In this document: positions 12,581 to 17,227 of the stretch, in pieces
How positions within the stretch are numbered: position 1 is the stretch's first letter
How the letters are laid out: every line of letters begins with the position of its first letter
From: Planctomycetota bacterium
GTDB lineage: Bacteria > Planctomycetota > Phycisphaerae > Phycisphaerales > UBA5793
Length of the DNA: 64,000 nucleotides
Direction: 5' to 3'
NCBI GenBank assembly: GCA_963205185.1
Contig: CAUJHZ010000037.1
Span: 52,341-116,340 of the forward strand
Translations under genes and position numbers: made by a program
Notes under the pieces: generated by a model
Seen by the model: only the letters and a program-made list of their open reading frames with translations
Database searches by the model: none
What the model was told of the DNA's origin: nothing

Positions 12581-15500
12581 GTGAAGATCAACAGACGATT
12601 CACCAAAGCCGGCACGGATGTCTTCTCCACGGTGAAATGGGCGAAGCGGACTTCGCGCATCAGTAACTCCGACGGCTCGGTCGTCTTTGAGATGAAGGAC
12701 GCCGAGGTTCCCGAGAGCTGGTCGCAACTGGCGACCGACATCATGGTGAGCAAGTACTTCCGCAAGGCGGGCGTGCCGCAGGAAGCTGATACGAGCCGAG
12801 ACTGTAAGGGAGCGGGTGCTTCCGAGCGCGCGGCGGCGGACGAGCAGGGCAACCCGCTTCCTCACGGGCGCGGCTCGTCAGAGCCGGCCACCGGCCCCGA
12901 AAAATCGGCGCGGCAGGTCATTCACCGCCTCGCCGGGTGCTGGCGCCACTGGGGCGAGAGCCACGGCTACTTCGACTCCGCCGAGGACGCCCAGGCGTTC
13001 TACGACGAGCTCTGTCACATGATGTTGCACCAGATGGCAGCGCCCAACAGCCCGCAGTGGTTCAACACCGGCCTGAACTGGGCCTACGGCATCACCGGCC
13101 CCGCGCAGGGGCACTTCATCGTCGATCCCAACACCGGCCAGGTCGAGCTGGCCGATGACGCCTACACCCACCCCCAGCCGCACGCGTGCTTCATCCAGAG
13201 CGTGAGCGATGACCTCGTCAATTCCGGCGGGATCATGGACCTGTGGGTGCGCGAGGCGCGGCTGTTCAAGTACGGCTCGGGCACGGGCACGAACTTTTCC
13301 AACCTGCGCGGCGAGGGCGAGCCGCTCAGCGGCGGCGGCACGAGCAGCGGGCTCATGTCGTGGCTCAAGATCGGCGACCGCGCCGCGGCCGCGATCAAGA
13401 GCGGCGGCACGACGCGGCGCGCGGCGAAGATGGTCTGCCTCGATCTCGACCACCCCGACATCGAAGCCTTCGTCAACTGGAAAGTGCGCGAAGAACTCAA
13501 GGTCGCCGCGATGGTCGAGGGCCTCAAGACGCTGCCCAAGGACCAGCAGCAGATCGCCGCCGACCTGGGCCTGAAGCTGAATTACGATTTCAACGGCGAG
13601 GCGTACTACACCGTCAGCGGGCAGAACAGCAACAATTCGGTGCGCATCCCCGATGCGTTCTTCGATGCGCTCGACGAAGGCAAGCCGTGGAGCCTGCACC
13701 GCCGCACGGACGGGCAGCTGCACCACAGCATCGACTCGCAGCGCCTGTGGAACGAAGTGTGCTACGCCGCGTGGCGCTGCGCCGACCCCGGGGTGCAGTT
13801 CGACTCGACGATCAACGCCTGGCACACCTGCCCAGGCAGCGGACGCATCAATGCGAGTAATCCGTGCGTTACGGGAGACACGCTGGTTGCGACCGAAACC
13901 GGGTTCCGGCGCATTGTCGATCTGGTTGGCGGCAGCGCAACGATCATCAATGGTGACGGCGATCGCGTCTTCGTCGATCGGATCTTCAAGACCGGCACCA
14001 AACCCGTGTTCGAACTCAAGACGGCGAGCGGATACTCAGTCCGTCTGACGGCAGACCACCGAGTCAGGACGCTCAATCGGGGTGATGTTCCGGCATGTCA
14101 ACTGACTCTGGATGACGTACTGGTTCTCGAACGGCCAGGGTTCGGCGACGATTTCATCCCCGAAGCGTTTGGCGAAGTGCTCGGCGCCGCCGTCGGTGAC
14201 GGCTGCATCACGAAGGGCCGAGACCAAGAATTCCTCTTCATCTCACTCGGTGAAAGTGAGCGCGCGGTGGCGCAGCACCTGCAAGCGGCGATTGCAGAAT
14301 GCAAGGTATGGCTCAATGCCGGGGATGGTCGTGGTCTGCGCGATTCAGAGGTGACTGCGACCGAGACGGGCTTGCGCGTCGGTACATCGGTGAGCGCGGT
14401 TCTTGAGCGCTTGCGACTGTACGCCATGCTGGCGTCGGGGTCGTCGAACAAGCAATTCACCGACGAAGTGTTCCGTTTGGACAAACGGAGCATCGCAGCG
14501 ATACTGCGCGGCCTGTTCACCGCGGACGGCACGGTGGCGAACTACGGCGAGAAATCGCAATACGTGTCGCTGGATTCGACGAGCCTCGAACTGCTTCGAC
14601 AAGTGCAGATGTTGCTTCTCGGGTTCGGCATCAAGGCCCGGATCTATGAGAATCGGCGCGCGATGGATCAGACCAAAGCCGTGTTGCCTGACGGCCACGG
14701 CGGCACGAAGGAATACGTGGTTCAGCAGATTCACTCGCTTCGCATCAGCCGTTCCTCGCGCGTGACGTTCGAACGGGAAATCGGGTTCCTGTCCGCGAGC
14801 GCCAAGGCTGCCCGTCTGGCGGAATTGAACACAACGGTTTCCACCTACAAGGATCATTTCACGGACCGCGTCAAATCCGTAGTGCCATGCGGCGTCGAAG
14901 ATGTGTACGACCTCACCGAGCCGCGCAGCCACCACTTCGTGGCCAACGGTATCGTGGTGCACAATTGCTCCGAGTACATGTTCCTCGACAACACGGCGTG
15001 CAATCTCGCGTCGATCAATCTGCTGCGCTTCTACGACAGCCGCAGCGCGACCTTTGACCTTGACGGCTACGAGCACGCGATCCGCCTGTGGACCATCGTG
15101 CTCGAGATCAGCGTGCTCATGGCCGCGTTCCCGAGCGAAGAGATCGCGCGGCTGAGTTACGACTTCCGCACGCTGGGTCTGGGCTTTGCCAACATCGGGG
15201 CCGTGCTCATGCAGGCCGGCATCCCCTACGACAGCGAAGAAGCGCGGGCCTTGTGCGGCTGCCTGACGGCGGTCCTGTGCGGCCGGTCGTATGCCGTCAG
15301 CGCCGAGATGGCCGGGCAACTGGGCGCCTTCCGTGAATTCCACAAGAACCGCGAGCACATGCTGCGCGTGATGCGCAACCACCGGCGCGCAGCGCACGGC
15401 GTGTCGCGCCACAGCGGACAATACGAGAACCTGCGCATCGCGCCGGTGCCCATCGACCACGACGCCGCGGCCCGCGCCGGCAAGCAGTTCGCCAACGCTG

Positions 15501-17227
15501 ATGAACTGCTCATGCGGGCCATGAACGCGTGGGACGAGGCGCTGGACCTCGGCGAGCGCTACGGCTATCGCAACGCGCAGACGACGGTCATCGCGCCCAC
15601 GGGCACGATCGGCCTGCTCATGGATTGCGACACGACCGGCGTCGAGCCGGATTTCGCCCTGGTGAAGTTCAAGAAACTCGCCGGCGGCGGCTACTTCAAG
15701 ATCGCCAACAACTCGCTCCGACCCGCCCTTGAGACCCTCGGATACGAGCAGCAGCAGGTGCGCGACATCCTCCGCTACGTGATGGGGTCGCTGAGCCTGG
15801 ATGTGCCCATGCCAGGGTCTCAGGGCGGAACTTTCAAAGAATTCCTCGGCAAGAAGGGCTTCACCGAGGACGATCTCGACGCGATCGAAGCCCAGCTCGG
15901 CTCGGTCTTCGAAGTGGGATTCGCCTTCAGCGCCTGGTCGCTGCGCGAAGACCTGCTCCGGCAACTGGGCATCGAAGTCGAAGCAGCCCGCAACAACCCG
16001 GCCTTCAACCTGCTCCGCGAGATCGGGCTGACCGCGAACCAGATCGAATCGCTCAATGAGTCGATCTGCGGCACGCAGACGGTCGAGGGCGCGCCGCACC
16101 TCAAGGCCGAGCACCTGCCGGTCTTCGACTGCGCCAACCCGTGCGGCCGCAAGGGCACGCGCTTCATCGCGCCGCAGGGGCACATCCGGATGATGGCGGC
16201 GAGCCAGCCGTTTATCTCCGGCGCGATCAGCAAGACGATCAACCTGCCCAACAACGCTTCGGTTGAGGACATCGCCGCGTGCTATCGCCTGAGCTGGGAA
16301 CTGGGCCTCAAGGCCAACGCGCTCTACCGCGATGGCTGCAAGCTCAGCCAGCCGCTCAACACGAGGAGTGATGCCGCCGCGGACGCGATGGAAGACGGCG
16401 AGGAAGACGACCTCGACGTGGCTGCGGCAAAAAAAGAGGTTGCGGCCGAAGTTGGCGAAGTCGCGGCGATTGCTGCGGCCCCTGACGGGGACACTGTGCG
16501 CACCGTCGAGAAGATCGTCGAGCGCATCGTCGAGCGTCCGCTGCGCCGCCGCCTTCCCGACACGCGCCGCAGCCTGACGCACAAGTTCAACGTCGCCGGC
16601 CACGAGGGCTACCTCACCGTCGGCCTCTACGACGACGGCATGCCCGGCGAACTGTTCCTGACCATGAGCAAGGAAGGCTCGACGATCGGCGGCCTGATGG
16701 ATTCGCTGGGCACGGCCATCAGCGTGGCTCTGCAATACGGCGTGCCGATGGAAAGTCTGGTGGGCAAGTTCACCCACCAGCGCTTCGAGCCGGCGGGGAT
16801 GACGACCAACGCCGACATCCCCTTTGCCAAGAGCCTGGTCGATTACATCTTCCGGTGGATGGGCATCCAGTTCATTCCCGGCTATCGCAGCCAGGCCACG
16901 CCGCAGCGCGGCAGCGCCGACCCGGCCGCGGCTCCGGCCACGGGAGAGGTCGCGGTGCGCGACGCCAAGCCGGCCCCCGCCGGCAATGGCCACGCCATCG
17001 AGATCACCCGCGAGAGCGAAGAGAGCCGCTTCAGCGCCGTGAGCGATCGCGACCACTCGTCGATCACCATGACCGAGACGCGAACCAAGTCGCGCACGGT
17101 GCTCGACCGGGCGATGGGTGAACTGATGGGCGATGCGCCGGTGTGCGATGTGTGCGGCGCGCTGACGGTTCGCAATGGAACCTGTTACAAGTGCATGAAC
17201 TGCGGCAACAGCATGGGATGCAGTTGA
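12581..17227 (+). CDS. nrdJ: Vitamin B12-dependent (class II) ribonucleotide reductase with intein
   Basis: This 1548-residue precursor reduces ribonucleotides using adenosylcobalamin to make the thiyl radical. Removing the 367-residue intein (residues 429-795) leaves a 1181-residue enzyme. Host motifs are HRLAGCWRHWGE, NSPQWFNTGL, PHACFIQSV with the first redox Cys, GSGTGTNFS, the split NP/CSEY radical motif, IAPTGTIG, and the C-terminal CDVCGALT...CYKCMNCG cysteines that re-reduce the active site. The start is the GTG at 12581, with GGAAGG about seven bases upstream. Residues 70-110 (GNPLPHGRGSSEP) come from an inserted palindromic DNA repeat. It is monocistronic and has a long 3' region ending at a terminator near 17560. 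Confidence 0.96.
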   Translation: MKINRRFTKAGTDVFSTVKWAKRTSRISNSDGSVVFEMKDAEVPESWSQLATDIMVSKYFRKAGVPQEADTSRDCKGAGASERAAADEQGNPLPHGRGSSEPATGPEKSARQVIHRLAGCWRHWGESHGYFDSAEDAQAFYDELCHMMLHQMAAPNSPQWFNTGLNWAYGITGPAQGHFIVDPNTGQVELADDAYTHPQPHACFIQSVSDDLVNSGGIMDLWVREARLFKYGSGTGTNFSNLRGEGEPLSGGGTSSGLMSWLKIGDRAAAAIKSGGTTRRAAKMVCLDLDHPDIEAFVNWKVREELKVAAMVEGLKTLPKDQQQIAADLGLKLNYDFNGEAYYTVSGQNSNNSVRIPDAFFDALDEGKPWSLHRRTDGQLHHSIDSQRLWNEVCYAAWRCADPGVQFDSTINAWHTCPGSGRINASNPCVTGDTLVATETGFRRIVDLVGGSATIINGDGDRVFVDRIFKTGTKPVFELKTASGYSVRLTADHRVRTLNRGDVPACQLTLDDVLVLERPGFGDDFIPEAFGEVLGAAVGDGCITKGRDQEFLFISLGESERAVAQHLQAAIAECKVWLNAGDGRGLRDSEVTATETGLRVGTSVSAVLERLRLYAMLASGSSNKQFTDEVFRLDKRSIAAILRGLFTADGTVANYGEKSQYVSLDSTSLELLRQVQMLLLGFGIKARIYENRRAMDQTKAVLPDGHGGTKEYVVQQIHSLRISRSSRVTFEREIGFLSASAKAARLAELNTTVSTYKDHFTDRVKSVVPCGVEDVYDLTEPRSHHFVANGIVVHNCSEYMFLDNTACNLASINLLRFYDSRSATFDLDGYEHAIRLWTIVLEISVLMAAFPSEEIARLSYDFRTLGLGFANIGAVLMQAGIPYDSEEARALCGCLTAVLCGRSYAVSAEMAGQLGAFREFHKNREHMLRVMRNHRRAAHGVSRHSGQYENLRIAPVPIDHDAAARAGKQFANADELLMRAMNAWDEALDLGERYGYRNAQTTVIAPTGTIGLLMDCDTTGVEPDFALVKFKKLAGGGYFKIANNSLRPALETLGYEQQQVRDILRYVMGSLSLDVPMPGSQGGTFKEFLGKKGFTEDDLDAIEAQLGSVFEVGFAFSAWSLREDLLRQLGIEVEAARNNPAFNLLREIGLTANQIESLNESICGTQTVEGAPHLKAEHLPVFDCANPCGRKGTRFIAPQGHIRMMAASQPFISGAISKTINLPNNASVEDIAACYRLSWELGLKANALYRDGCKLSQPLNTRSDAAADAMEDGEEDDLDVAAAKKEVAAEVGEVAAIAAAPDGDTVRTVEKIVERIVERPLRRRLPDTRRSLTHKFNVAGHEGYLTVGLYDDGMPGELFLTMSKEGSTIGGLMDSLGTAISVALQYGVPMESLVGKFTHQRFEPAGMTTNADIPFAKSLVDYIFRWMGIQFIPGYRSQATPQRGSADPAAAPATGEVAVRDAKPAPAGNGHAIEITRESEESRFSAVSDRDHSSITMTETRTKSRTVLDRAMGELMGDAPVCDVCGALTVRNGTCYKCMNCGNSMGCS
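12791..12878. repeat. Palindromic repeat inserted in-frame within nrdJ
   Basis: Two 26-base arms (12791-12816 and 12853-12878) are inverted copies with five mismatches, flanking a 36-base loop. The right arm encodes LPHGRGSS. A related half-site lies at 25137-25161 at the end of another gene. The element keeps the nrdJ frame open and adds about 30 residues to a region that is not part of the catalytic core. Confidence 0.65.
13865..14965 (+). mobile_element. Intein with LAGLIDADG-type homing endonuclease domain, in nrdJ
   Basis: The splicing blocks are complete. The intein starts at Cys429 (CVTGDTLVATETGF). Block B is LTADHRVRT. The C-terminal blocks are VYDLTEPRSHHFVANGIVVHN, with the final His-Asn, followed by Cys796 as the +1 extein residue. 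Between them are two LAGLIDADG-like motifs, LGAAVGDGCIT and LRGLFTADGTV, with acidic residues retained, so both splicing and homing functions may be intact. Length is 367 residues. After splicing, Pro joins Cys to restore NPCSEY, the radical-bearing motif of the reductase. Confidence 0.95.

Follow-up and report, generated by a model that had tools for sequence, protein, structure and literature searches.

Inteins are established to favor conserved sites (PMC2814812), and several have been described in ribonucleotide reductase (RNR). The RNR large-subunit allele rir1-b has been recorded in 15 Halobacteria, 55 Bacteria, and 5 other Euryarchaeota (Soucy et al. 2014, PMC4071816) and is there considered perhaps more ancient than most, with diversity that crosses class and domain boundaries; the accompanying table includes Acidovorax strains, and the term "Planctomycet" is absent from the main text of that paper. 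Here we describe a 367-residue intein encoded at positions 13865 to 14965 of a 64,000-nt stretch (the window) of contig CAUJHZ010000037.1 from a Planctomycetota bacterium, where it interrupts a class II, adenosylcobalamin-dependent RNR (NrdJ) between the Pro and the Cys of an NPC motif (NP|C, the bar marking the junction). Strain names and junctions suggest that this site is probably rir1-b. An Acidovorax sp. SUPP3334 protein (P0227) reads ATNP|CVTAD and Halobacteria also have NP|C, although P0227 comes from another strain and Acidovorax-type inteins end in GQ, whereas ours ends in HN.

The SPbeta BnrdE intein (Bacillus phage SPBc2) likewise lies directly before the homologous Cys (SNL|CVTGE...GN|CSE; 30.3% by tblastn over query residues 1-376 of 381), but its host is a class Ib enzyme, Leu occupies the -1 position, and it ends in GN rather than HN. 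The PI-PfuI intein (PDB 1DQ3; 454 residues) is 20% identical, a comparison of sequence and not of insertion site. The Methanothermobacter (Mth) RIR1 mini-intein, reportedly 134 residues long and without an endonuclease, is said to interrupt a class II RNR between a native Pro (-1) and a Cys (+1) and to splice poorly until the Pro is replaced. This mini-intein has been used as a tool (PMC9033041, PMC7765530, PMC5667439). The NrdJ-1 intein (PDB 8UBS; PMC13123727) is split and has exteins NPC|SEI, with Cys at -1 and Ser at +1; because this junction is one codon downstream of NP|C, inteins flank the radical cysteine on both sides. Identity of the planctomycetal intein with NrdJ-1 was rejected, as its ORF (open reading frame) is contiguous and its junction is NP|C. 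The Aquifex aeolicus R2 intein also adjoins catalytic residues of an RNR but is found in another protein and at another site, between metal-ligand residues of the small subunit (PMC8772380).

The nrdJ ORF (12581..17227, + strand, as are all features below) has a GTG start, encodes 1548 amino acids, and contains PF02867, PF08471, and TSCPD domains (Pfam). It exceeds the cutoffs of NF005122 and TIGR02504 and falls below that of NF005736 (1512.3 of 1737); the barrel domain, the class II N-terminal domain, and the NPC finger loop place it among class II RNRs. The intein forms residues 429 to 795, with junctions ...INASNP|CVTGDTLVAT...ANGIVVHN|CSEYMFLD. It is preceded by the N-extein (residues 1-428, 12581..13864, ending ...RINASNP), which aligns with the NrdJ structure 7b9p from the first residue of each, and followed by the C-extein (14966..17227), which has a TSCPD domain and a C-terminal Cys-rich tail. 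The 925 residues of 7b9p align to residues 1-317, 335-429, and 795-1260, with no counterpart of the insert. All four genomes sampled from the same genus (G001 to G004) have an empty site, NPCSEY, so the insert is a real insertion; one of them, G003, has exteins 97.3% identical to those of the window in protein and 93.1% in DNA. The sequence-only reading had placed a 367-residue intein at these coordinates, with a spliced product of 1181 residues, and both hold, removal of the intein from the precursor (1548-367) yielding 1181 residues with NPCSEY rejoined. It had also named two findings that would overturn it, the 367 residues as a conserved part of NrdJ and the loss of the terminal Asn or the +1 Cys; G003 speaks against the first, and both residues are present.

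Models of the intein and LAGLIDADG families, which that reading had proposed searching, all score above cutoff: Intein_splicing PF14890 with 52.5 bits (cutoff 35.8), LAGLIDADG_3 PF14528 with 78.4 (22.5), and the NCBI intein terminus models TIGR01445 with 40.5 (24.5) and TIGR01443 with 28 (15.6), the last scored with the intein alone. The predicted structure (pLDDT 94.8) has a Hint fold with a nested LAGLIDADG endonuclease, matched by I-DmoI and I-Tsp061I over model residues 95-328. Splicing blocks and both LAGLIDADG motifs, described earlier as intact, have all key residues in place. The class 1 set is complete (C1, T62 [B:7], H65 [B:10], D349 [F:4], H366, N367, and the +1 Cys; roles after PMC4031507), distributed over block A (CVTGDTLVATETG, 13865..13903), block B (GYSVRLTADHRVRT, 14030..14071), block F (VEDVYDLTEPRSHHF, 14894..14938), and block G (GIVVHN, 14948..14965). 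The endonuclease domain (about residues 96-328, 14150..14848) contains motif 1, VLGAAVGDG, with D112 (14177..14203) and motif 2, LRGLFTADG, with D221 (14504..14530), each with an acidic residue at position 8. Across 122 rows, C1, D112, D349, H366, and N367 are each present in 122 of 122 and position 221 is D in 118, E in 2, and N in 2; these rows were picked by similarity, so that conservation is partly built in. A class 3 assignment, defined by the lack of a nucleophile at position 1 and by Cys at F:4, was rejected, as C1 is present and F:4 is Asp; given the invariance of C1, a class 3 or direct-attack mechanism was likewise set aside. Neither the Rfam scan nor the tRNA scan of the window gave a hit. 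The insert is confirmed as a genuine intein at the NP|C site of NrdJ and not a chance resemblance.

The +1 Cys (TGC, 14966..14968, the first residue of CSEY) is aligned with the NPC cysteine of both 7b9p and the enzyme 1xje, in agreement with the earlier proposal that it is also the radical cysteine. We take its equivalent in Thermotoga maritima to be Cys322. The finger-loop cysteine is the thiyl radical carrier in all biochemically characterized RNRs (PMC9669993). A single cysteine is thereby predicted to serve first as splicing nucleophile and later as radical carrier, and, because 367 residues break the finger loop, the unspliced reductase should be inactive. The draft genome (97.39% complete) contains one PF02867 gene, and searches of it for NrdD (PF13597), the class I small subunit (PF00268), and the RNR_Alpha domain (PF17975) found none. 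Positive controls for the PF02867, PF13597, PF00268, and PF17975 searches gave matches in 11, 6, 7, and 1 of 14 control genomes, respectively. Since no other RNR was found, splicing is probably obligatory for this host; counting against this is that the genome is only 97% complete and a second RNR could be absent from the draft.

We consider it very likely that this is a full-length class 1 intein with a nested LAGLIDADG endonuclease, lodged between Pro428 and the catalytic-loop Cys of a class II RNR, and that it must self-splice, likely using that Cys as its +1 residue, before the thiyl radical can form. In the predicted reaction Cys1 would attack the carbonyl of Pro(-1), the bond being activated by T62, H65, and D349; transfer of the N-extein to Cys+1 would follow, Asn367 would cyclize with the aid of His366, and an S-N shift would restore the NPCSEY finger loop. 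In a separate process, the endonuclease would recognize and cut the joined site of nrdJ genes that lack the intein, and repair would copy the intein in. Homing activity is plausible for the family and may extend to this copy.

Pro428 itself (CCG, 13862..13864), the residue before the intein, had not been remarked on in the sequence-only reading. Proline at -1 is, chemically, the least expected point, and in the NrdJ-1 intein Pro at -1 markedly lowers fidelity and is reported as splicing incompatible (PMC13123727). The residue is Pro in 120 of the 120 best-listed homologues and in all 68 cleanly parsed sequences described below, and the NP|C family is a natural collection of Pro(-1) sites. Within block B, residue 69 tracks this proline: Thr occupies the position in 228 of 231 rows with an NP|C junction (223 of 226 distinct) but in 0 of 72 with NL|C, although the -1 label (Pro or Leu) changes once on the tree, making one independent contrast, and the T69 correlation is no test. 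Over intein residues 1-6 the NP|C and NL|C groups are nearly alike. T69 may be regarded as a candidate compensator for Pro(-1). We suggest tentatively, and think it unlikely in full, that the RNR active site has given rise to a Pro(-1)-adapted clade of class 1 inteins, with T69 and perhaps other residues compensating, and that the intein here gates maturation of the sole RNR.

Inteins at this site are widespread. Among 392 genomes from the phylum, the intein profile has matches in 15 at E <= 1e-20, and in 8 of those the match reaches E <= 1e-160. Of 7997 candidate proteins scored, 2255 match the intein at E <= 1e-3, and the best 120 of these without exception have NP before the intein, HN at its end, and Cys at +1, with an intein length of 367 amino acids in 67. 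Two of the 120 are named Fimbriimonas ginsengisoli and Neorhodopirellula pilleata, and some proteins (P0018, P0047, and P0095) are already titled "intein-containing adenosylcobalamin-dependent ribonucleoside-diphosphate reductase." A single-sequence scan of genome contigs returned no relative, a sensitivity limit, because an alignment-based scan of named genomes gave at least 555, of which 80 were kept. Junctions were parsed in 83 sequences (these 80 loci, L156, L049, and the window): 68 parsed cleanly, 67 as NP|C...HN|C and 1 as NP|C...SN|C. Of the other 15, 9 gave NP|C...HN|C by a separate parse, L114, L131, and L129 did likewise, and L064, L107, and L109 run off the ends of their contigs. 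Carriers span Planctomycetota, Sumerlaeota, Chloroflexota, Chlorobiota, Acidobacteriota, Uhrbacteria, Halobacteria, Nano-, Woese-, Micr-, and Aenigmatarchaeota, and others.

Phages and plasmids also carry related inteins. A phage search gave 36 records matching the intein, and those whose junctions were read place it before the homologous cysteine, as SNL|C in SPbeta BnrdE and an uncultured phage, LNP|C in Thermus phage G20c, and SNP|C in a Nodularia phage; in Miltoncostaea, a class Ib gene on a plasmid reads SNL|C at the same cysteine. A search with the Miltoncostaea class Ib intein produced 251 matches, the best 120 of which comprise 69 with NL|C, 43 with NP|C and 3 with NL|C that end in GQ, and 5 that fit neither parse. 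The 43 form an NP|C subfamily ending in Gln (GQ|C) rather than Asn, several of them with betaproteobacterial names (e.g., P0195, P0213, and P0227). An IMG/VR contig (L156) has a related intein, 52% identical, at the same NrdJ site and is a possible vehicle, and NrdJ relatives of more than 2200 amino acids (P0114, P0107, P0117, and L085) may hold further inteins. The earlier statement that NrdJ inteins occur in other bacteria and archaea is borne out, the same site being occupied in both and in phages. The intein is a new member of a known family, and its site is almost certainly a known one. A literature search of open-license papers on RNR inteins, Planctomycetes, Pro(-1), and the radical cysteine recognized no treatment of the NP|C site in Planctomycetota; new here are a genus in which carriers and empty alleles occur together, the context of a sole detected RNR, and the question posed by Pro(-1).

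The family moves horizontally, since its intein and extein trees conflict. In quick trees of the named set (supports are SH-aLRT), the window intein groups with those of L061 (Phycisphaeraceae) and L062 (Sumerlaeota) at 96, whereas the window extein falls with Planctomycetota rows (99) and that of L062 among rows of other phyla in a clade supported at 100. Since intein and extein share one ORF, misbinning cannot explain the conflict. Inteins are more similar than their exteins in 5308 of 7374 pairs, some long "extein" rows of which may hold further inteins, and in the pair P0062/P0068 the inteins are 99.7% identical and the exteins 88.5%.

Dissecting how the intein came to this particular lineage draws on 61 genomes: that of the window, 4 of the same genus, 1 of the same family, and the remainder of the same order. 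Among the matches listed, an intein match runs through the nrdJ site in G000, G019, and G046; 16 nrdJ loci were fetched, these three included, and 3 have an intein and 13 read NPCSEY. A further carrier, P0002, known as a protein alone, has the nearest intein relative (75% identity) and, by an extein identity of 88.3%, is an apparent member of the genus. On the extein tree, the window and G003 are sisters (99) and P0002 lies beside G002 (83); with 23 hand-chosen rows, at least 6 changes of intein state are needed. The intein may have arrived recently in the window lineage. That it was instead inherited from an ancestor of the genus and lost in G001 to G004 is the most serious alternative, if the less probable one. 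P0002 carries the intein too, and pairs of similar extein identity have similar intein identity, as in P0101/P0103 (0.727 for inteins, 0.896 for exteins). Ancestral inheritance would, however, require several precise losses, since the four empty genomes interleave with the two carriers on the extein tree, and P0003 and P0007, from outside the genus, share the unresolved intein group of the window.

Several observations temper the case for recent arrival. The clade of window and P0002 inteins expected under vertical inheritance is not rejected (AU P = 0.467), and dS is near saturation. Compared with G003 and G001, the window has four bases of its own and a switched Ser codon within 15 nt of the junction, but a co-conversion tract was discarded as evidence, as 140 of 3459 windows are equally high at half-width 15, and a flank scan at half-width 120 is weak (8 versus 8.39 expected). 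Third-position GC content (GC3) is 0.722 in the intein and 0.878 in the exteins; as a sign of foreign origin this too was set aside, since 7 of 33 chunks of the window, drawn from mechanically chosen ORFs, are as low.

The insert might also be a decaying relic, its endonuclease dead and the intein kept since the host cannot lose it without harm to an essential gene. Inteins in conserved sites are indeed difficult to lose (PMC2814812), and at 75% identity to the nearest relative no recent donor is seen. We regard this as unlikely, for the frame is open at full family length, both catalytic Asp residues are retained, dN is below dS in the endonuclease half, and the predicted structure has a confident endonuclease fold. 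Less likely still is regulated splicing, in which Pro(-1) would slow the first step and the intein would time maturation or gate deoxynucleoside triphosphate (dNTP) synthesis under stress. The reported incompatibility of Pro(-1) with splicing, the fact that the RNR active site fixes both Pro(-1) and Cys(+1), and the failure to detect another RNR in the draft genome would fit, and an intein effect on an RNR has a precedent in A. aeolicus R2, where the intein increases iron loading (PMC8772380); the spread of the family at NP|C nevertheless points to adequate splicing in many hosts. An assembly chimera or an integral NrdJ domain, for which solely the draft status of the genome speaks, is refuted by the same-family insert at NP|C in all 120 best-listed homologues and by the empty alleles in the same genus.

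The gene and genus harbor other insertions. At 12782-12889, in the NrdJ N-terminal linker, lies a palindromic dispersed repeat, in frame and translated as EADTSRDCKGAG...NPLPHGRGSSEPA. Counting this copy, one of its arms is found 10 times in the genome at <= 3 mismatches (reversed control, 0), and the repeat folds as a hairpin (z -3.0). The linker has 44 residues in the window, 12 in G003, 35 of other sequence in G001, and 57 in G004, where the same motif is doubled; G002 was not parsed. The linker is a spot that has repeatedly taken in-frame inserts within one genus, and its inserts resemble Rickettsia palindromic elements. Outside the window, the same genome has a second intein (L059:2188-5703, VGDPDQ|CLLPDT...VVHN|SIYGWRG) in what we take, by motif, to be a UvrD/PcrA-type helicase, and G002 has a different intein in a helicase-like protein (L060:2-2548, DEAHHA|CFVAGT...LVHN|CAKSYR). 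The genus thus has inteins in at least three genes.

If splicing is obligatory, as it appears to be, the dNTP supply of this cell runs through a selfish element, and one thiol takes part in two unrelated reactions, as splicing nucleophile and as RNR radical carrier. Homing could be dated and tested well in this genus, which has both carriers and closely related empty alleles, and well over a hundred natural Pro(-1) junctions could show how inteins tolerate proline.
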